Positions 32,392-42,159 of a DNA stretch of 64,000 nucleotides are shown in pieces. The DNA comes from Thermoplasmatota archaeon (GTDB lineage Archaea > Thermoplasmatota > Thermoplasmata > UBA10834): the NCBI GenBank assembly GCA_018818785.1, contig JAHIRF010000006.1, positions 186,001 to 250,000 of the forward strand, written 5' to 3'. How positions within the stretch are numbered: the first letter of the stretch is position 1; every line of letters starts with the position of its first letter. The notes beneath the pieces are model-generated. The model did not search any database. It worked only from the letters and a program-made list of their open reading frames with translations, and was not told the DNA's origin. The translations under genes were made by a program, and so were the position numbers.

Positions 32392-33279
32392 TTACTCCGT
32401 CCTGTCCGCCTCGGTCAATTCCTCTGGAGCCTTCTCCTCACCCTTGGCATCGTCCTTTGGAGCGGCCTTCTTCTCTTTGGCCTTTGGCTCCACCGTAGGA
32501 GCTTCCTTCTTCTCTTCGGCCTTCGGCTCCTCCTTCTTCTCGGGCTTGGTGTACTCTTCTATGAAAGCGACCGTTCCAGCATCCAGGGCGTCCCTGAGAT
32601 CTGTCACGACCCTGTACTTGCTCAGGATCCACTTCTGGTCGTACTTGCAGGCATCTGGCAATTTGAGCTTGTAATCCTTGCCATGGTGCTCGATGTCGAA
32701 TCCTTCGGCCGTGCCGTATGACATCTTGAGCACCAGTTCGACGACTTCCTTCGGCTTCGTGGGTTTCTCAGTGATCTTGTACTTGTATCTGAGTGTCCTT
32801 CCAGCAAGTCTGTTGTTGAAGTCAACCCTGACTCTTCCAGCAGTCACTGCGGTTATGGTGCCAGTCCGATTCCGAACGGTCACCTCGAGCCCTACCTGCG
32901 GCTCGATCTCTTGCTTCAGGAATTCACGGACCGGGTGAAGCTCCACGAGCTTCGCGTCCCTCGGGCCAGCAGCGTTCTCAGGAGGTATCGTGATTTCGTA
33001 TTCTTTGCCTATGTCGGCCGTCAACATGTGCTCGTCGAGACCAGGGAACAGCCTGCTCTTGCCGACCATGAGCGGTTGAGCGCCATAGACCATCTTCTCG
33101 TTGTATATCTTGTTCTCCCTGGCGACAGTCTCACTGGTCGTGTCGAACAACTCACCTGTGTCATGTATCCAGGCGTCGAATTCTGCGAGTACGATATCTC
33201 CAGGGCTGATCTTGGAGTCGGAATCATGCTTCTTGTCGTCCTTAACGTGGTGCTTCTCTGCACCTTCCTTCTCAGTCAT
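32392..33279 (-). CDS. FKBP-type peptidyl-prolyl isomerase (long archaeal type)
   Basis: 295 residues. The N-terminal FKBP domain has SPGDIVLAEFDAWIHDTGELFDTT and a VYGAQPLMVGKSRLFPGLDEHML core. The IF/flap insertion follows, with NRTGTITAVTAGRVRVDFNN and NRLAGRTLRYKYKI typical of SlyD-like archaeal FKBPs. A third region (~170-245) is the C-terminal domain found in the ~26-30 kDa archaeal forms. The last ~50 residues are a Lys/Glu/Ala-rich tail of low complexity. It catalyses prolyl isomerisation and chaperones folding in the cytoplasm. GGTGAG precedes the ATG. Confidence 0.92.
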   Translation of the reverse strand: MTEKEGAEKHHVKDDKKHDSDSKISPGDIVLAEFDAWIHDTGELFDTTSETVARENKIYNEKMVYGAQPLMVGKSRLFPGLDEHMLTADIGKEYEITIPPENAAGPRDAKLVELHPVREFLKQEIEPQVGLEVTVRNRTGTITAVTAGRVRVDFNNRLAGRTLRYKYKITEKPTKPKEVVELVLKMSYGTAEGFDIEHHGKDYKLKLPDACKYDQKWILSKYRVVTDLRDALDAGTVAFIEEYTKPEKKEEPKAEEKKEAPTVEPKAKEKKAAPKDDAKGEEKAPEELTEADRTE

Positions 33280-34900: not shown

Positions 34901-35794
34901 TCAGAGCAGAAGCACAGGCTTGCTCGGCCTTAGGGAGTACTTCTTGCACTTGTAGCAGTACCATTCATTGTACTCAGGGATGAACTTCATATCATCCCCA
35001 CAGGCCGGACAGGTCTTCTTCTCCTTGGGCGCGTATTCCTTGCACGCGACGCAGTAGTGCCGTTCGTACTTCTCGATCCACTTCAGAGGCTTGCCGCACT
35101 TCGGACACATTCCGGCGCCCGAGGGCTTGGATGACGGTTTTGCGGCCGGCTTGGGCTGCTCGACCGCCTTCTTCCGGCGCAGAGGGTACTTCTTGCAGCT
35201 GTAACAGTACCACTCAGAGTACTTCTCGACGTACTTGAGCTCGCCGCCGCAGTCTGGGCAGGCCTTCGTCTCCGGAGCAGGCTTTGCCTCTTCCTTCGGC
35301 TTGTCCTCCTTGGGCGCATATTTCTTGCACCCGTAGCAGTAGTGCCGCTGGTACTTTTCGATCCACTTCAGAGGTTGGCCGCAGTTGGTGCACATCCTGA
35401 TGGTCATGTCAGTCTTGGGCTCCGCAGCGGGCACCACAACATCAGGCACCCCTTTCGGAATCGCTGACAGCATAGCCTCTTTAGGCTCGACCTCGGATAT
35501 CTCCGCCAGATCAGCGGCCAATTCATCTTCATAATCATCAGAATAATCCTTGAACGCCTCGCGGACAGGGACTTCGTCCATCTGTTCGGAGTCTATGACA
35601 GCTGGGGCCATTTCAGACGCCACCTGATCCTCGATGTGCTCGACGGTTTCCTCGGCATGTTCATGGTCTTCCTCGGTTCCGTCGACATAAGTGTTGCACT
35701 CGTAACAATACCACTTCTCGATGTGCTCAACGAAGAAAGGCTCTTCGCCACACTTCGGACACTTTGACGCTTCCATCAATTTTAGCTCCTTCAT
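34901..35794 (-). CDS. Five-zinc-ribbon protein
   Basis: About 297 residues with five ribbons of the form CPxCG(x)3-5(W/Y/F)(x)4(Y)(x)2(W/H)YCYxCKKY. The first sits near the N-terminus and is separated from the others by an acidic linker of ~100 residues. Ribbons 2 and 4 share KWIEKY.RHYC; ribbons 3 and 5 share Y.EWYCY.CKKY.LR. This suggests that a two-ribbon unit was duplicated. Zinc-ribbon strings bind nucleic acid or proteins; function unknown. ATG 35794 has GGTGATG just upstream; the frame extends back to 35926 but that part is outside the likely transcript. Confidence 0.7.
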   Translation of the reverse strand: MKELKLMEASKCPKCGEEPFFVEHIEKWYCYECNTYVDGTEEDHEHAEETVEHIEDQVASEMAPAVIDSEQMDEVPVREAFKDYSDDYEDELAADLAEISEVEPKEAMLSAIPKGVPDVVVPAAEPKTDMTIRMCTNCGQPLKWIEKYQRHYCYGCKKYAPKEDKPKEEAKPAPETKACPDCGGELKYVEKYSEWYCYSCKKYPLRRKKAVEQPKPAAKPSSKPSGAGMCPKCGKPLKWIEKYERHYCVACKEYAPKEKKTCPACGDDMKFIPEYNEWYCYKCKKYSLRPSKPVLLL

Positions 35795-35884: not shown

Positions 35885-36023
35885 TTCCTGGGAATCAGGC
35901 CTGATAACAGGTACGGCCCGGGCCAATGAAGTGGGCCAGAGAGGTGTTGTGTGCTGTCAGTTAGCTTACATGTAAGCGGGTAGAATATGCCACTCACGAA
36001 TAGTAAGAGCTCCCGTTGGTATC

Positions 36024-36509
36024 ATGACGGCGAGAAGCAAGGTTTCCAGACTCAGACCCGACCGTGAAGGAGGCATCGAAGGGCTTCCGCTTCAACTGCT
36101 GATAATGGTGGTCGTGGCGGGACTCGGCCTCACGATAATAATGGGGTGGATGAATTCCATAGCCGCTCCGAACGCCATCGGAGAGATCTTCGTCAGCCCG
36201 GGTGAGATCATAGTCTTTGACGTTGATGGCGACGGTCTGTACACATCGTATGACAATACGATAAGCGTCATAGTGACGGATCAGAGTGGGGACCGGCTGG
36301 AAGGAGCCACTGTGATGCTGGATGGAGCGAACATAAGGAATGCCGATGGCTCGCCTGTGAGGGGCGTGACGGATTCCAATGGACAGGTCGTGTTCTTGGG
36401 GCTAAAACTCGAGAAATTCGGATCGGGGTTCACAACCGTCACCGTCACGGTGGCCAAGGGGAATTATGGCGTCGACACCGGTTATGAGATACCCGTCATC
36501 ACGGGCTGA
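36024..36509 (+). CDS. Pilin-like membrane protein with Ig-like domain (first of three)
   Basis: 161 residues. After a short charged leader comes an archaeal pilin-like N-terminus (GLPLQLLIMVVVAGLGLTIIMGWM), then an external domain. This domain has a D.DGDGLYTSYDN element and a CarboxypepD_reg/Ig-like unit (GDRLEGATVMLDGANI ... GVTDSNGQVVFLGL). Archaeal pilin-like proteins of this size often occur in clusters. It is followed after 5 bases by the next gene, so these three genes form an operon. Export by a type IV pilus-like system is inferred; no assembly ATPase is in the window. Confidence 0.65.
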   Translation: MTARSKVSRLRPDREGGIEGLPLQLLIMVVVAGLGLTIIMGWMNSIAAPNAIGEIFVSPGEIIVFDVDGDGLYTSYDNTISVIVTDQSGDRLEGATVMLDGANIRNADGSPVRGVTDSNGQVVFLGLKLEKFGSGFTTVTVTVAKGNYGVDTGYEIPVITG

Positions 36510-36514
36510 CCGAT

Positions 36515-36988
36515 ATGCGTATCCGAGAGGATGACAGGGCCCTGGAGGCGCTGCCGCTCAGGTTGATGATCGTGGCGATAGTCGCCGCCATGTCGATTGT
36601 GCCAGCCACCGAGGCTCTGAATACCGTGCGCGACAGAGAGTTCCTTATCAGGGCGGAGCTGCAACTCGAGGAGATCATCTCTTCCGCCCAGAGATTATCG
36701 ATGCAGGGTCCAGGGAGCGTCGACCACATAGACCTCGACTTCTCATCGGCAGGTCGGATGAGGCTTCAGAATCTGAACATAGGGGATTCCATCGGAGGAG
36801 CGTACGAATGCTCCGTCGTTCTTGAACTCGCTTCAGGAGCGCAGATAGTCCGAACCGCATCAAGCCCCCCAGCCACGATCACATCCCAGGGAGATAGATC
36901 TCTAGAGATCTGCTCCGAGATCTGCACCATCAGGATGGTCGGAGGAGTCATCGATGGACGACAATGCATCATCGCAGAGGTGATCTGA
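36515..36988 (+). CDS. Pilin-like protein (second of three)
   Basis: 157 residues. A short charged leader with ALEALPLRLMIVAIVAAMSIV is again the pilin-like hydrophobic N-terminus; note the shared LPL(Q/R)LLIM or LPLRLMI core with the preceding gene. The rest is a small beta-rich domain with two Cys pairs (CSVV, CSEICTI, CII). It overlaps the next gene by 25 bases. Function inferred only from the shared N-terminus and the context. Confidence 0.6.
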   Translation: MRIREDDRALEALPLRLMIVAIVAAMSIVPATEALNTVRDREFLIRAELQLEEIISSAQRLSMQGPGSVDHIDLDFSSAGRMRLQNLNIGDSIGGAYECSVVLELASGAQIVRTASSPPATITSQGDRSLEICSEICTIRMVGGVIDGRQCIIAEVI

Positions 36989-37455
36989 CGGATTTCATCG
37001 TGTCGAAGGTGGCCATGTCGATATGCGCGCTCATGTTCATGGCCGTCGCCAGTGGTATCGTCACACATTCAATGACCTTGGACGAAGAGAGTGAATTGAG
37101 CGAGATGCTCAGCTCCCTGGAGAAATTGATATTGCTCGTGAGCGGATGTGGATCCGAGTGCGATCTTTCGTGGTCGGTCCCGTGCACTCAGGACGGCTCT
37201 GAGATATGGCTTGATATCTGTCACTCGTACATGACGGCGAGCGCAAATGGCCACACTGTCGGAGTAGAACTACGAGACCCTGTGCACACTTGGGAATGGA
37301 AAGGAGAATCACTGAATCAATCCATAATTGAAGAGCGCGATCTGGCTTCGGACCATCTCAAGCTGCATACAGGTGATGTTCTCGGCGTCAACACCAGCCT
37401 CATCCTCGTCGACGAGCTCTCGAGCATCCTGTTATTCTTGGTCCAAGTCACCTGA
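36964..37455 (+). CDS. Pilin-like protein (third of three)
   Basis: 163 residues with an N-terminal helix (FIVSKVAMSICALMFMAVASGIV) and an external region with paired cysteines (CGSECDLSWSVPC, ICHSY). Similar size and layout to the two preceding genes; sequence similarity is limited to the hydrophobic helix. ATG 36964 overlaps the preceding gene. It overlaps the end of the leftward cysteine desulfurase gene by 8 bases, so the two converge. Confidence 0.6.
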   Translation: MHHRRGDLTDFIVSKVAMSICALMFMAVASGIVTHSMTLDEESELSEMLSSLEKLILLVSGCGSECDLSWSVPCTQDGSEIWLDICHSYMTASANGHTVGVELRDPVHTWEWKGESLNQSIIEERDLASDHLKLHTGDVLGVNTSLILVDELSSILLFLVQVT

Positions 37456-38671
37456 CCTTGCCGAAGCTGGCGGAGAGGTCTCGTACAGCCTCGACGAAAG
37501 AGTCCACCTCATCATCCGTGTTGTAGATGTAGACCGACGCTCTTGCACATCCATCTACAGCAATCTCATCAAAGTATGAATGGCAACAATGCATGCCCGA
37601 GCGTATCATGATATTCTTGGAATTGTCGAGTATCATGGCGATGTCATGAGGGGTCATTCCATCGATATTGAAGCTGAATATGCCGCCACGCATATTCGGA
37701 TCGAATGGTTTCATGATGGCGACCTCTGGTGTTTGCATGAGACCTCTGGTCATACGACGGTTGAGTCCGACCTCGTGGTCCCTGACATCATCCATCCCAA
37801 CGGAATTGAGATAATCGACTGCTGCTCCAGTACCTAGGATGCCGGAGTAATTCTGCAGTCCGGTCTCAAAACGCTCTGGAGGTGGGAGGAGGGTGAACTT
37901 GCCACCCCTGACTTCGGTCACCCCGTGACCGCCATACATGATCGGTTCGATGTCAGCGGCAGCACCCTCATTCACATAGAAGATGCCTACACCGGATGGC
38001 CCCAGCATCTTATGGGCCGAAGCAGCGAGATAATCCACCTCAAGCATACTCATATCCAATGGCATGCTCGGAGCCGCCTGGGCGGCATCGAATAGCACGC
38101 GCGCACCGTATGAATGTGCAATATCCACGACTTCCCTTGCCGGTAGCGTATAGCCATGGACATTCGATGTCAGACACATCGCGACCAGCTTCACCCTCTT
38201 CGACATCCTTTCATGAAAGGCATCGACATCGAACGTGGCATCGTCAGATGACTGGACGGAGATGTGTTTGACACCTTTCAATTCGCACACCTTGAATACC
38301 GGGACCTGGAGGGAATTGTGCTCATAATCAGTGGTGACGACCTCGTCACCGGGTTCGAAGTCGTAACCAAGGATCACCGTATTCAGACCTTCCGTTGCGT
38401 TCTTCAGAAAAGCAATCTCGTTGGCGTTCTCTGCGCCGAAGAAGCGAGCGACTTTCGAGCGAGCGTCGTCGCATCGTATGGACACTTCCGTCGCGAGCTT
38501 GTGAACACTTCTGCCCGCACATGATGGGAATGCACCATAGTATTCGTTCATAGCCTCCAAGACTTGAACCGGCCGCAGTGATTGGCATGCACTATCGAAA
38601 TAGACCAGGGGATTGACCCCGGGCTCTGAACTCAGCAACGGGAAGTCCTGTCGGACCCTAGAGACGTCCAT
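37448..38671 (-). CDS. Cysteine desulfurase, SufS/Csd type (class V aminotransferase)
   Basis: 407 residues. PLP enzyme that takes sulfur from cysteine as an enzyme persulfide. Visible landmarks are YFDSACQSLRP at the N-terminus, NATEGLNTVILG, the DAAQAAPSMPLDM strand, the SAHKMLGPSGVG Schiff-base lysine, and a C-terminal RSGMHCCHSYF carrying the active-site Cys. ATG 38671 (MDVSRVRQDFPLL) is the family-typical start; the frame extends to 38734. It is divergent from iscS with ~140 bases between. A second, IscS-type enzyme adjacent makes this pair unusual. Confidence 0.85.
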   Translation of the reverse strand: MDVSRVRQDFPLLSSEPGVNPLVYFDSACQSLRPVQVLEAMNEYYGAFPSCAGRSVHKLATEVSIRCDDARSKVARFFGAENANEIAFLKNATEGLNTVILGYDFEPGDEVVTTDYEHNSLQVPVFKVCELKGVKHISVQSSDDATFDVDAFHERMSKRVKLVAMCLTSNVHGYTLPAREVVDIAHSYGARVLFDAAQAAPSMPLDMSMLEVDYLAASAHKMLGPSGVGIFYVNEGAAADIEPIMYGGHGVTEVRGGKFTLLPPPERFETGLQNYSGILGTGAAVDYLNSVGMDDVRDHEVGLNRRMTRGLMQTPEVAIMKPFDPNMRGGIFSFNIDGMTPHDIAMILDNSKNIMIRSGMHCCHSYFDEIAVDGCARASVYIYNTDDEVDSFVEAVRDLSASFGKVR

Positions 38672-38772
38672 ATTGAACGCCCATGGATGTCGCTGGACCG
38701 TATTAGTCCTTTTCAGTTTGAGGTGGGTCCCCAAACCGACATGCAGGACCGAAAACCCTCATTCACACCGGC

Positions 38773-38785
38773 AAACTTTTAAGAC
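38773..38785 (+). promoter_or_regulatory. iscS promoter
   Basis: AAACTTTTAAGAC is a TATA element centred ~33 bases upstream of the iscS ATG at 38813, consistent with a leaderless or short-leader mRNA. Confidence 0.6.
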
Positions 38786-38812
38786 GACCAGTTATCATCA
38801 CCTTCGTTCGTT

Positions 38813-40027
38813 ATGACAGCCAGCTCCAAGAGAAGGGTGTATTTCGACCATAGCGCGACCTCTCAGGTCTTGCCAGAGGTCTTGGAAGCCATGCTGCCCT
38901 TCTTCAGAGAGCGCTTCGGCAATGCATCGAGCATTCATTCCTATGGACGGGAAGCGAAGGCATCTATGGAGCTCGCCAGGAAGCATGTCGCTGCCTTGAT
39001 CAACGCAGACCCGAGGGATATCGTCTTCACATCAGGAGGTACAGAATCGGACAACCTTGCATTGAAGGGAGTCGCGATGTACAAGGGCCGGACAGAAGGG
39101 CACATCATAACCAGCGTGATCGAGCACCCTGCAATCCTTGAATCGTGCGAGTATCTGGAGCGCGTAGGTTTCGATATCACCAAACTGCCAGTCACCAGAG
39201 AAGGGCTTGTGGACGCTGCTGAATTGGAGAGGACGATCAGGGGCGACACAGTACTCATATCCATCATGGCCGCGAACAACGAGATCGGAACGATTCAGCC
39301 GATCAAGGAAATAGGAAGGATCGCGCAGTCCAAAGGGATCCCGTTCCACACGGACGCGGTACAGGCCGCTGGAAAGATGCCGATCGATGTGAAAAAGGAC
39401 GGCATGGACCTCTTGTCACTCTCCTCGCACAAGCTACACGGACCCAAAGGCGTTGGGGCGCTGTATGTTAAGAAGGGCATCAAGATAGAACCGATGATGC
39501 ACGGCGGAGGGCACGAGCACGGATTGAGATCCTCGACGGAGAATGTGCCGGGAATAATCGGCCTGGGCAAGGCCGCGGAGCTCGCCAAACGGGATTTCGA
39601 ACCGGTGACCGATCGCATGAGATCCCTTAGAGACAAGATCATAGACAGGATCCCGCAATTGGTCGAGAGATCCTATCTGAACGGTCACAGGACAAATCGA
39701 CTCGTCAATAACGCACATTTCAGGTTCGATTTCATCGAAGGTGAGGCGCTCATACTACAGCTGGATTTCAAAGGCATCGCTGCATCCACAGGATCTGCGT
39801 GCTCGACAGGATCCCTGGAACCGTCCCATGTACTGCTGGCACTGGGACTGACTCACGAGCAGGCGCACGGCAGCCTCAGACTCACATTGGGACGGGAAAA
39901 CACCTATGAGGATGTAGATTACTTACTGGAAGCGTTACCCGGTGTGGTCTCGAAGCTGAGAGAGATATCCCCGTTCAACGAGGAAAGGCCCATGGGAGCC
40001 AGTGAGGGTGGAAGCTGTGTACACTGA
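38813..40027 (+). CDS. iscS: Cysteine desulfurase, IscS/NifS type
   Basis: 404 residues. PLP-dependent sulfur donor for Fe-S clusters and tRNA thiolation. It has YFDHSATSQVLPEV, FTSGGTESDNLALKG, DAVQAAGKMPIDV, SSHKLHGPKGVGALYV (Schiff-base Lys), and the active-site Cys loop STGSACSTGSLEPSHVL. It overlaps the following iscU gene by about 11 bases, the classic desulfurase-scaffold pairing. Confidence 0.95.
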   Translation: MTASSKRRVYFDHSATSQVLPEVLEAMLPFFRERFGNASSIHSYGREAKASMELARKHVAALINADPRDIVFTSGGTESDNLALKGVAMYKGRTEGHIITSVIEHPAILESCEYLERVGFDITKLPVTREGLVDAAELERTIRGDTVLISIMAANNEIGTIQPIKEIGRIAQSKGIPFHTDAVQAAGKMPIDVKKDGMDLLSLSSHKLHGPKGVGALYVKKGIKIEPMMHGGGHEHGLRSSTENVPGIIGLGKAAELAKRDFEPVTDRMRSLRDKIIDRIPQLVERSYLNGHRTNRLVNNAHFRFDFIEGEALILQLDFKGIAASTGSACSTGSLEPSHVLLALGLTHEQAHGSLRLTLGRENTYEDVDYLLEALPGVVSKLREISPFNEERPMGASEGGSCVH

Positions 40028-40400
40028 GAAGGTTATGGATCACTTCGCAAATCCGAGGAATGTCGGTGAGATACCCGATGCGGATGGTATCGGAAAGGTA
40101 GGGAATCCCCAGTGCGGAGATGTCATGTGGCTGTACATCAAGGTCAGAGATGACATCGTCACCGATATCAAGTTCAAGACCTTTGGTTGCGGAGCCGCCA
40201 TCGCGACGAGTTCCATGATCACGGAGTTGGCAATTGGTAAGACCCTGGAGGAGGCAAAGAAGATATCCAGACAGGATGTCGCTGAGTCGCTCGACGGCCT
40301 GCCACCTCAGAAGATGCACTGTTCCAACCTGGCAGCGGACGCATTGAGAAAGGCCATCGAGGATTATGAGACGAAGAAGGCAGCGAAGGCCAAGGCCTGA
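40017..40400 (+). CDS. iscU: Fe-S cluster scaffold protein
   Basis: About 127 residues. IscU/NifU-N scaffold on which new [2Fe-2S] or [4Fe-4S] clusters are assembled from IscS-derived sulfur. Motifs are YTEKVMDHFANPRNVGE, VGNPQCGDVM (Cys 1), FKTFGCGAAIATSS (Cys 2) and PQKMHCSNLAADAL (Cys 3); these are the three conserved ligand cysteines. GTG 40017 gives the family-typical start (usual MYSEKV); GTG 40002 in frame would extend it into iscS. The short Lys/Ala tail is normal. Confidence 0.93.
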   Translation: MYTEKVMDHFANPRNVGEIPDADGIGKVGNPQCGDVMWLYIKVRDDIVTDIKFKTFGCGAAIATSSMITELAIGKTLEEAKKISRQDVAESLDGLPPQKMHCSNLAADALRKAIEDYETKKAAKAKA

Positions 40401-40475
40401 TCCTCATATCATCATTGAGAGGCGGACCTTTCAGTAAAGTTCTTCTAGATGTAGGGGCAATCCACAACGAAGCCC

Positions 40476-41393
40476 ATGGCGGATTTGTCAGTCGATATCT
40501 GTGGTTTGAGCCTCAAGAACCCGACGATGCTTGCCTCAGGAGTTTTGGATGAGACAGGCAAGACAATGGCTTCAATCGCGCGCGCGGGTGCGGGCGCGGT
40601 GGTGACAAAATCGATCGGAAGAGAGCCCAGGCAAGGGCACGGCAGTCCATGCATCGTGGAGCTTGGTGACAGCCTGGTGAATGCCATGGGACTGCCCAAC
40701 CCAGGCATAGATGTCTTCGGCAGGGAGCTGGAGGAGGCCAAGAAGGCGGGGGTGCCGATCATCGGGAGCGTGTTCGGAGGAGGCGAAGCCGAGATCGCAG
40801 AGATGGCTCGCTTGATGGCAGATGCGGGGGCTGATGCAATCGAACTCAATCTCAGCTGCCCTCATGCCAAAGGATTCGGCGCGGAAGTCGGCTCGACCCC
40901 CGAGAGGGTGGAGAGCATCTGTAGAGCCGCCAGGAGCGGCTTGGATATACCGATGTTCGCGAAACTGACACCTAACACCTCGTCCATCGTTGATCTGGCA
41001 AAGGCCGCTGAAAGGGGTGGCGCGGACGCGATAGTAGCGATCAATACGTTGAAGGGTATGGTCATATCGCCAGAGGCAAGGATGCCGGTCCTCGCGAATA
41101 GGTTCGGAGGACTGTCTGGACCATCGATAAGACCCATCGGGGTCAGATGTGTTTATGAGATAAGGGGCGCGGTTAAGATACCGATCATCGGCGTCGGAGG
41201 AATCGAATCAGGCAACGACGCACTCGAGTACATAATGGCGGGAGCTAGCTCGGTCCAGATAGGGACAGCTGTCTGGAAGCACGGACCGGAGGTCTTCAGC
41301 AAGGTCTGTGAGGACATCTCAGAGTTCATGAATAGAAATGGCTTCGACAGGATTTTCGAGATGGTGGGGGTTGCCCATGAAGTCAAGCATTAG
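40476..41393 (+). CDS. pyrD: Dihydroorotate dehydrogenase, catalytic subunit (class 1B)
   Basis: 305 residues, FMN TIM barrel that oxidises dihydroorotate to orotate in pyrimidine synthesis. Features: GLSLKNPTMLASGVLDETG, KSIGREPRQGHGSP, the class-1 substrate-binding loop region IELNLSCPHAKG with catalytic Cys, FAKLTPN, NTLKGM, and the FMN-binding GVGGIESGNDALEYIMAGAS. It overlaps pyrK by 17 bases, so they form the heterotetrameric PyrDK enzyme that passes electrons to NAD+ or ferredoxin. Confidence 0.95.
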   Translation: MADLSVDICGLSLKNPTMLASGVLDETGKTMASIARAGAGAVVTKSIGREPRQGHGSPCIVELGDSLVNAMGLPNPGIDVFGRELEEAKKAGVPIIGSVFGGGEAEIAEMARLMADAGADAIELNLSCPHAKGFGAEVGSTPERVESICRAARSGLDIPMFAKLTPNTSSIVDLAKAAERGGADAIVAINTLKGMVISPEARMPVLANRFGGLSGPSIRPIGVRCVYEIRGAVKIPIIGVGGIESGNDALEYIMAGASSVQIGTAVWKHGPEVFSKVCEDISEFMNRNGFDRIFEMVGVAHEVKH

Positions 41394-42159
41394 GATGTTG
41401 AAGGTCTCGGAACACATCGACGAGACACCGAACGTCAGGACAATCGTGCTTGACGGTTCGATCGAGGCTGAACCAGGACAGTTCGTCATGGTTTGGGTAC
41501 CAGGCGCGGACGAATTCCCTATGTCGATATCATACATCGGGGATCAGATGGGGATAACATACCAGATCGTAGGGGACGGCACCAAAGCGCTCTCCATCAA
41601 ACACGTGGGTGATCTCGTTGGCATTCGAGGACCCTATGGTAAGGGATACACACCTATTGGCAGGAAACCGCTCGTTGTCGCTGGTGGGACAGGCATGGCA
41701 GCACTCTCACCGCTCATCGAGCGGCTCAAATTGAATCAGTCGGAAGTCAGAGTCGTCATCGGTGCTCGGACGGCCAGGGAGATTCTGTTCAGGGATCGAG
41801 CGATGAAGGCTGGTGCTGAGGTCGTGATCACCACCGATGACGGGTCTGAAGGCGAGAAGGGATTCGCGACGGACATCGCTGTCCCGATCCTGCAGACCCG
41901 CGAGCATGACATCGTATACTGCTGTGGCCCTGAGCGGATGATGACGAAGCTCGCAGACAAGTGTAGCGAACTCTCGATACCGATGCAGGCATCTGTCGAG
42001 AGGTTGATGAAATGCGGGATAGGGATTTGTGACTCCTGCGCCATCGATGGACTGCACGTTTGCCGGGATGGACCGGTCTTCTCGATCGATGTTCTGAAGG
42101 GGTTCTCGGAATTTGGACGCACGAAGCTCGATGCGACCGGGCGCAGAATCGACATATGA
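41377..42159 (+). CDS. pyrK: Dihydroorotate dehydrogenase electron-transfer subunit
   Basis: 260 residues. FAD-binding ferredoxin-reductase fold with a C-terminal [2Fe-2S] site. Visible are the FAD region PGQFVMVWVPG and GPYGKGY, the NAD-binding GGTGMAALSPLIERL, and the cluster ligands in CGIGICDSCAIDGLHVC. ATG 41377 (MKSSIRMLKVSE) starts inside pyrD. Length is usual for the family. Confidence 0.93.
   Translation: MKSSIRMLKVSEHIDETPNVRTIVLDGSIEAEPGQFVMVWVPGADEFPMSISYIGDQMGITYQIVGDGTKALSIKHVGDLVGIRGPYGKGYTPIGRKPLVVAGGTGMAALSPLIERLKLNQSEVRVVIGARTAREILFRDRAMKAGAEVVITTDDGSEGEKGFATDIAVPILQTREHDIVYCCGPERMMTKLADKCSELSIPMQASVERLMKCGIGICDSCAIDGLHVCRDGPVFSIDVLKGFSEFGRTKLDATGRRIDI

Follow-up and report, generated by a model that had tools for sequence, protein, structure and literature searches.

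What a single protein does with ten CxxC pairs, and how such an array arose, are the questions raised by one gene in the window, by which we mean the whole 64,000-nucleotide stretch of a Thermoplasmatota archaeon contig that was analysed. An earlier note had described the segment 34901-35794 as coding for five zinc ribbons in the order A-(B-C)-(B-C), and this arrangement is indeed present there: the gene (34901..35776, minus strand; protein from MEASKCPKCGEEP... to ...SLRPSKPVLLL) encodes 291 amino acids, whose 20 cysteines form five sets, every one with the spacing C-x2-C-x14-C-x2-C. The position was thereby borne out, and the start codon probably has to be moved. Conservation begins at MEASKCP (35776), continuing as MEASKCPKCG, and the codon at this position is ATG in the window and in 11 of 12 named relatives, and TTG in one. 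The gene probably starts at 35776, which places the previously given start, 35794, too far upstream by 18 bases.

The first cysteines of ribbons 1 to 5 are residues 6, 129, 173, 224 and 256. Measured from first to last cysteine, and all on the minus strand, ribbon 1 (A) occupies 35696..35761; next come a long, acidic stretch (linker 1, 35402..35683), ribbon 2 (B, 35327..35392), ribbon 3 (C, 35195..35260), ribbon 4 (the second B, 35042..35107), ribbon 5 (the second C, 34946..35011) and a C-terminal tail LRP(S/T/G)KP(V/I)LLx (34904..34936). When each ribbon is counted as a 31-residue unit, a gap of one residue separates ribbons 4 and 5. Conservation was followed in an alignment, A1, of the window protein and 11 orthologues (12 sequences, trimmed by hand at the MEASKCP start). 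The 20 cysteines in five sets and the tail are kept in all 12 sequences, which also share a division of charge: ribbons 2 to 5 have net charges of +2 to +6 and ribbon 1 of -3 to -5 (-3 in the window protein), and linker 1 ranges from -12 to -24, with -24 in the window protein. Aromatic and basic residues that are not candidate ligands are conserved among the orthologues as well. An AlphaFold2 (AF2) model of the full protein has a mean pLDDT of 67 and a pTM of 0.25, with ribbon blocks at about 77-93 and linker 1 mostly below 50; the model does not give the mutual placement of the ribbons, and the ordering of the ribbons is no proof of bound metal. Pfam finds no SAP domain in the window protein, and no 19-residue stretch reaching a Kyte-Doolittle (KD) value of 1.6, as expected of a C-terminal membrane helix, occurs in 12 sequences of its family, f1, or in one protein of the sister family f2.

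The likeness of ribbons 2 and 4 and of ribbons 3 and 5, noticed before in the window sequence, proved to recur in every complete sequence of the family. In the window protein, identity over 27 non-cysteine positions is 70% between ribbons 2 and 4 and 52% between ribbons 3 and 5, against 19-41% for the remaining pairs, which excludes an equal divergence of all five ribbons; at the DNA level ribbons 2 and 4 are 83% identical over 96 nt. The mean within-protein identities over the 12 A1 sequences are 51% and 50% for the two pairs and 21-27% for ribbon 1 against the others. Each of the 12 A1 sequences gives its highest score to the pairing 2+4/3+5, as does every one of 2000 column bootstraps. Of the 15 orthologous loci (L002-L016), four entered neither A1 nor the main test of pairing nor the tree, namely L002 (masked end), L004 (TTG start) and the fragments L014 and L016; tested separately, L002 and L004 favour the same pairing, which is thus common to all 14 complete sequences of the family, drawn from three genera.

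The ribbon-by-ribbon phylogeny that had been proposed as a check comprises 81 rows and 30 columns, omits the extra ribbon of the g2 orthologues, which is one residue shorter between the cysteine pairs, and leaves 41 of 76 inner branches open. Ribbon 1 forms a clade of its own (support 98/99), and ribbons 3 and 5, together with the second ribbon of an ATPase described below, are set off from the rest by one branch (support 88/86, unstarred). An AU test rejects the groupings 2+3 (p 0.022) and 4+5 (p 0.016), and 2+4 with the first ATPase ribbon is compatible with the tree (p 0.40, no rejection); single-clade tests gave p 0.22 for ribbon 2 and p 0.056 for ribbon 3. The f2 ribbons group on the B side, and in this weakly resolved tree the C-type ribbon looks specific to f1.

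The B-C doublet also occurs elsewhere, within an ATPase_2-like protein found in four of eight g2 genomes (L090-L093). Two of these insert-bearing proteins were tested against Pfam ATPase_2 and scored 24.5 and 31.1 bits, below the cut-off of 33.2. The doublet sits at the identical site in all four ATPases, between a Walker-A-like and a Walker-B-like stretch, which we presume to be such from inspection, and an alignment of the four with five homologues lacking the doublet (L094-L097 and L108; L098 was dropped) shows no clear loss of host residues at the insertion. By its sequence the B-C doublet is thus a real unit, found whole in an ATPase. Taken together, the ribbon comparison, the tree and this separate copy support the duplication of an ancestral B-C doublet inside one protein with a remote first ribbon, much as the earlier note had supposed, and the duplication would have preceded the split of the three genera of this Thermoplasmata family. 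Convergence or gene conversion of B and C ribbons, with no doublet duplication, is very improbable, given the same pairing in all complete sequences of three genera and the matching tails (YPLR-like after ribbons 3 and 5, YAPK-like after ribbons 2 and 4); some homogenisation is possible, as identity between ribbons 2 and 4 is higher in the window protein than in the mean of the 12 sequences.

Several collections were searched for what the ribbon resembles. With a 30-position profile of 14 ribbons the best solved relative is eS31/RPS31E (E 3e-4), followed by PF0385 (2k5c), and the single five-ribbon protein likewise finds eS31/S27ae as its best solved structure (E 0.029). In Pfam, the window protein reaches 23.7 bits for S27a (PF01599; cut-off 22.3) and one relative reaches 35.8. 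It scores 39.5 bits for DZR (PF12773; curated cut-off 27.3) over four stretches, 31.8 for DZR_2 (PF18912; 27) and 30.6 for Zn_ribbon_6 (PF07191; 25), and it is barely over the cut-off for DUF7564 (33.1 versus 32.2). The Pfam double-ribbon models denote a fold and not a function. Foldseek returned 289 matches for the five-ribbon model, none at E<=0.001; RNA polymerase subunits, PriA, TFIIB and 30S ribosomal chains are among the top rows. PADLOC gives a single hit, HEC-08, whose 23 bits fall on the ribbons and which we take as generic ribbon similarity, not as a sign of defence. A viral collection held no DNA matching the query patterns.

Relatives were sought across 400 genomes of the class Thermoplasmata, the homologue search that had been suggested for this group. 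A ribbon match is present in 69 of the 400; the five-ribbon protein matches 16 f1 genomes at E<=1e-10, and a family search at E<=0.001 matches 17 of 19 genomes, one of them (G014) solely through a hydrophobic protein with a single ribbon. The matching named records are Thermoplasmata or 'Euryarchaeota' metagenome-assembled genomes, e.g. UBA9653 and RBG_13_57_23. The f2 relatives have six to seven ribbons. The f15 and f19 relatives tested combine a SAP domain and ribbons with hydrophobic C-terminal stretches, those of f23 and f24 have the ribbons and such stretches with no SAP match, and at least two C-terminal hydrophobic stretches are present in six tested proteins from these four families. 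Also seen was a hydrophobic protein of about 250 residues whose end is formed by one ribbon of this type (L077, L078, L080, L017); the L077 copy matches nothing in Pfam at E<=0.001. In two f16 genomes (L045/L069 and L075, one of them labelled Methanomassiliicoccales) each protein contains six near-alike tandem ribbons, which suggests a recent amplification. The window genome itself has seven ribbon matches, five in the protein described here, one in a hydrophobic 248-residue frame and one in a 91-residue frame. The remark that small zinc-ribbon genes are unusually frequent in the window did not stand: under one fixed rule the 64-kb window contains 6 such frames, this one included, where the 27 counted over 400 kb of this genome lead one to expect 4.3.

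The ribbon gene is divergently arranged to three genes that we call pilin-like (36024..36509, 36515..36988 and 36964..37455, all plus strand). The criterion for a type IV pilin applied here, a charged leader, a hydrophobic N-terminal helix and a beta domain, describes these proteins, with a KD peak of 2.1-2.4 near the N terminus in all three. The model of the first has a helix at residues 22-45 followed by eight strands in an Ig-like beta sandwich (pLDDT 82), a predicted fold that fits a pilin. The pilin-like genes have no match to a Pfam or NCBIfam pilin or class III signal family, and Foldseek gave the model of the first no match at E<=0.001; its top 50 rows are generic Ig-like folds, chaperone-usher pilins among them. 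Further along the conserved f1 block come two genes for class V aminotransferases (in the window one at 37448..38734, minus strand), which we take to be cysteine-desulfurase-like, then NifU_N and further genes in conserved order, and a gene for an FKBP-type prolyl isomerase (32392..33279, minus strand) is conserved on the opposite flank. A block of pilin-like and aminotransferase-V genes spans several families of the class (window 36024-42159; L121-L128), and most of the L121-L128 loci also contain relatives of the genes at 40476-42159.

The first pilin-like gene has matches in 174 of the 400 class genomes. Of the 69 genomes with a ribbon match, 44 have a pilin-like match as well and 25 do not, 16 of the latter belonging to genus g41 of f23. 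Ribbon and pilin-like genes are neighbours in 25 of the 44 genomes that have both (two of them across a contig break) and lie far apart or on different contigs in the other 19. In f1 they adjoin divergently in 13 of 13 genomes that have both on a single contig. In G015 the contigs are split within the intergenic region, and in G008 the contig ends inside it, so that the missing ribbon gene there is uninformative. As the whole block is syntenic in f1, the adjacency in this family is not specific to the pair. The two are neighbours in both f2 genomes, one of them read from a ribbon-gene start at a contig end. They lie within about 2 kb in 5 of 5 f15 genomes (with one frame between them at the locus inspected), in f23 genus g48 (G101 and G138) and in 2 of 2 f24 genomes (G081 and G154). 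The 19 genomes without this adjacency include two of f16, with more than 1 Mb between the genes, and five of f19, four of which have them on different contigs and one at a distance of 0.7 Mb. Eight loci from f6, f20, f29, f30, f32 and f33 have a pilin-like gene without a ribbon neighbour.

The 247 bp between the ribbon gene and the first pilin-like gene contain two conserved elements. The first, E1, (A/T)ATCA-N4-TGATAA (35893..35908), is found in all 12 aligned intergenic regions (the window and 11 named loci) with TATA-like boxes around it. Its strict form AATCA-N4-TGATAA has 41 sites in 12 f1 genomes and none for the backwards pattern; in the window alone, and with one mismatch allowed, E1 is no commoner than in shuffled sequence. 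Nine of the 41 sites are at the ribbon locus (two being the same place, on both G015 contig ends) and 32 elsewhere. Twenty of these 32 were fetched (L155-L174), of which nine are at an operon for double-zinc-ribbon and winged-helix proteins, seven near a gene for a HAD hydrolase or a beta-lactamase-like protein, and four at other places. None of the recurrent E1-site genes that were tested is a metal transporter. The sites of E1 outline a small candidate regulon, whose regulator may be supplied by the winged-helix operon with its double-zinc-ribbon protein.

The second element, E2 (35960..35979), has in the window the perfect palindrome GCTTACATGTAAGC and is located 45-64 bp ahead of the pilin-like start codon. 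Three of the 12 aligned loci match its consensus GTAGCNTACATGTAGC exactly and the others have variants of it, and exact TAGCNTACATGTA has five matches in the 12 f1 genomes, three at the pilin-like locus and two on a short contig with a T2SSE ATPase. Scanned with a weight matrix built from the 12 E2 sites, 400 kb of control DNA, taken from the window genome only, yields a single site above 17 bits. At the operon of T2SSE, a secretion/pilus-type ATPase, E2 reaches at least 17 bits at 6 of 8 testable f1 loci; the eight values are 12.5 (window genome), 20.8, 23.4, 22.3, 19.9, 14.5, 21.2 and 17.1, the site being weak in the window genome and in G011 (14.5). Loci L181-L191 were picked by their T2SSE gene, and L182, cut by a contig end, is outside this count. 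L179 and L180 were picked by their E2 match and are also at the T2SSE operon. Two f2 T2SSE loci have no E2 at 12 bits or more. Through the recurrence of E2 at this operon the pilin-like genes are connected with a system of the secretion/pilus type; T2SSE and T2SSF genes are present in 20 of 20 genomes searched, and these families are not specific to pili. Frames beside several of the T2SSE-operon E2 sites (L179-L189) look pilin-like by eye. Also recurring beside the T2SSE operon, f2 included, is a small protein, e.g. YCPKCKELRVKPWY...C.RC, in which two CxxC pairs accompany a hydrophobic segment (L181:388-750, L183:2-352, L184:4733-5074, L186:553-912, L187:156-509, L190:146-457 and L191:3182-3571); its L181 copy has no Pfam match.

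As best explanation we tentatively propose that the five-ribbon protein is a soluble adaptor or regulator of a type-IV-pilus-like system, with presumed zinc and nucleic-acid binding and a putative action on the pilus genes. The conserved division of charge points to two halves, one acidic and the other suited to bind nucleic acid: RNA or DNA would be gripped by the two B-C doublets, whose four ribbons are basic and aromatic, and the acidic ribbon 1, the acidic linker and the LRPSKPVLL tail would contact protein partners or restrain the basic part. The scaffold for protein or RNA that the earlier note envisaged may still apply, the genomic context pointing to an adaptor or regulator tied to a pilus-type system. 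For this proposal we count the ribbon tests, the doublet in the ATPase, the eS31-like ribbons, the charge split, the SAP domains of the f15 and f19 relatives, the pilin-like neighbours, E2, the T2SSE and T2SSF genes and the precedent of Brz (below); against it we count the 19 of 44 genomes in which the genes are not neighbours, the 25 ribbon genomes that have no pilin-like match, the pilin-like loci of other families that have no ribbon neighbour, the f1 synteny, the missing pilin family match, the Foldseek searches with no match at E<=0.001, the weak E2 at the T2SSE operon of the window genome itself and its absence at the f2 loci, the zinc-free proteins of Haloferax (below), and the lack of SAP and membrane helices in the window protein.

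The nearest competitor, which we rank below the adaptor and regard as possible though on the whole unlikely, is a pure protein-protein scaffold whose ribbons dock a membrane or surface complex, such as a pilus base or a surface-protein machinery, nucleic acid playing no part. The locus of the doublet-bearing ATPase codes for DUF4129, DUF4350 and large surface proteins of DUF11 type (tested on a single representative each), and together with the C-terminal hydrophobic stretches of the six relatives, the conserved tail and the pilin-like neighbours this would suit a scaffold. The uniformly basic ribbons 2 to 5 with their eS31-like pattern do not, and the SAP domains of the f15 and f19 relatives rather suggest nucleic acid.

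It is less likely still that the protein is associated with the ribosome or with translation, having arisen from duplicated eS31-type ribbons, and that its pilin-like neighbourhood is incidental synteny. The best solved matches are to eS31/S27ae, if weakly so for the single protein, and the entire f1 gene block is syntenic; against this, ribbon genes lie near pilin-like genes beyond f1, in f2, f15, f23 g48 and f24, and the hydrophobic C-terminal stretches of the relatives fit a ribosomal factor poorly. That the five-ribbon protein itself reads E2 (GTAGCNTACATGTAGC) and thereby couples the pilin-like genes to the secretion/pilus-type ATPase operon is a speculative extension to which we give little credence. 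If it were true, multiplication in the form of B-C doublets would have turned a ribbon of eS31 type into a sequence-specific DNA regulator, with the membrane-anchored relatives as tethered versions. We think it most unlikely that the protein is a metal or redox buffer that stores zinc or senses oxidation with its ten CxxC pairs and has no macromolecular partner: 20 candidate ligand cysteines in 291 residues, and aminotransferase-V and Fe-S-type NifU_N genes adjoining the pilin-like genes, would suit metal traffic, but the non-ligand aromatic and basic residues and the tail are conserved and the recurrent E1-site genes tested are not metal transporters.

The soluble adaptor or regulator remains our preferred, if tentative, reading. 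Irrespective of function, the protein is a clear example of how a two-ribbon zinc module can be duplicated within one protein and also be present as a whole copy in an ATPase, and the multi-ribbon set of Thermoplasmata is tied to a pilus-like locus whose DNA elements are open to testing. Should the pilus link be true, it would provide a handle on the control of surface filaments in uncultured Thermoplasmata.

Among known zinc-finger proteins of archaea, brz is a zinc-finger gene beside bop whose deletion is reported to lower bop mRNA (PMC2253796). What the window gene shows in this respect is its conserved divergent arrangement with the pilin-like genes, and an effect on their transcription would be by analogy. 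In Haloferax, several zinc-finger u-proteins affect swarming and biofilm (PMC6562870), and among 14 C(P)XCG proteins that were purified 5 contained no zinc, so that CxxC motifs need not bind zinc (PMC11241148). Brz and the Haloferax proteins are single and small, whereas the window protein has five ribbons in 291 residues. The TackOD1 domain, with 11 cysteines in 5 CXXC and one HXXC motif (PMC5847659), differs from the window protein with its 20 cysteines and ten CxxC pairs.

In the literature searched, we recognised no paper as describing the multi-ribbon set of Thermoplasmata. The other members of this set (L063-L076, L112, L130, L133 and L134) have the same ribbon type, and the multi-ribbon genes of f2, f15, f23 g48 and f24, near pilin-like genes, are positional counterparts of the window gene; the proteins are mostly longer than the window protein, and the SAP domains and hydrophobic stretches are theirs and not its own. 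The eS31 (S27ae/RPS27A) ribbon has the same C-x2-C-x14-C-x2-C spacing and the CPKCG...YDRHYC.KC pattern of the window ribbons, but eS31 is a small ribosomal protein with a single ribbon, as opposed to five in the window protein. With DZR, DZR_2 and Zn_ribbon_6 the window protein has tandem CxxC...CxxC ribbons in common, and to these double ribbons it adds the A-(B-C)-(B-C) order, the acidic linker and the fixed tail.
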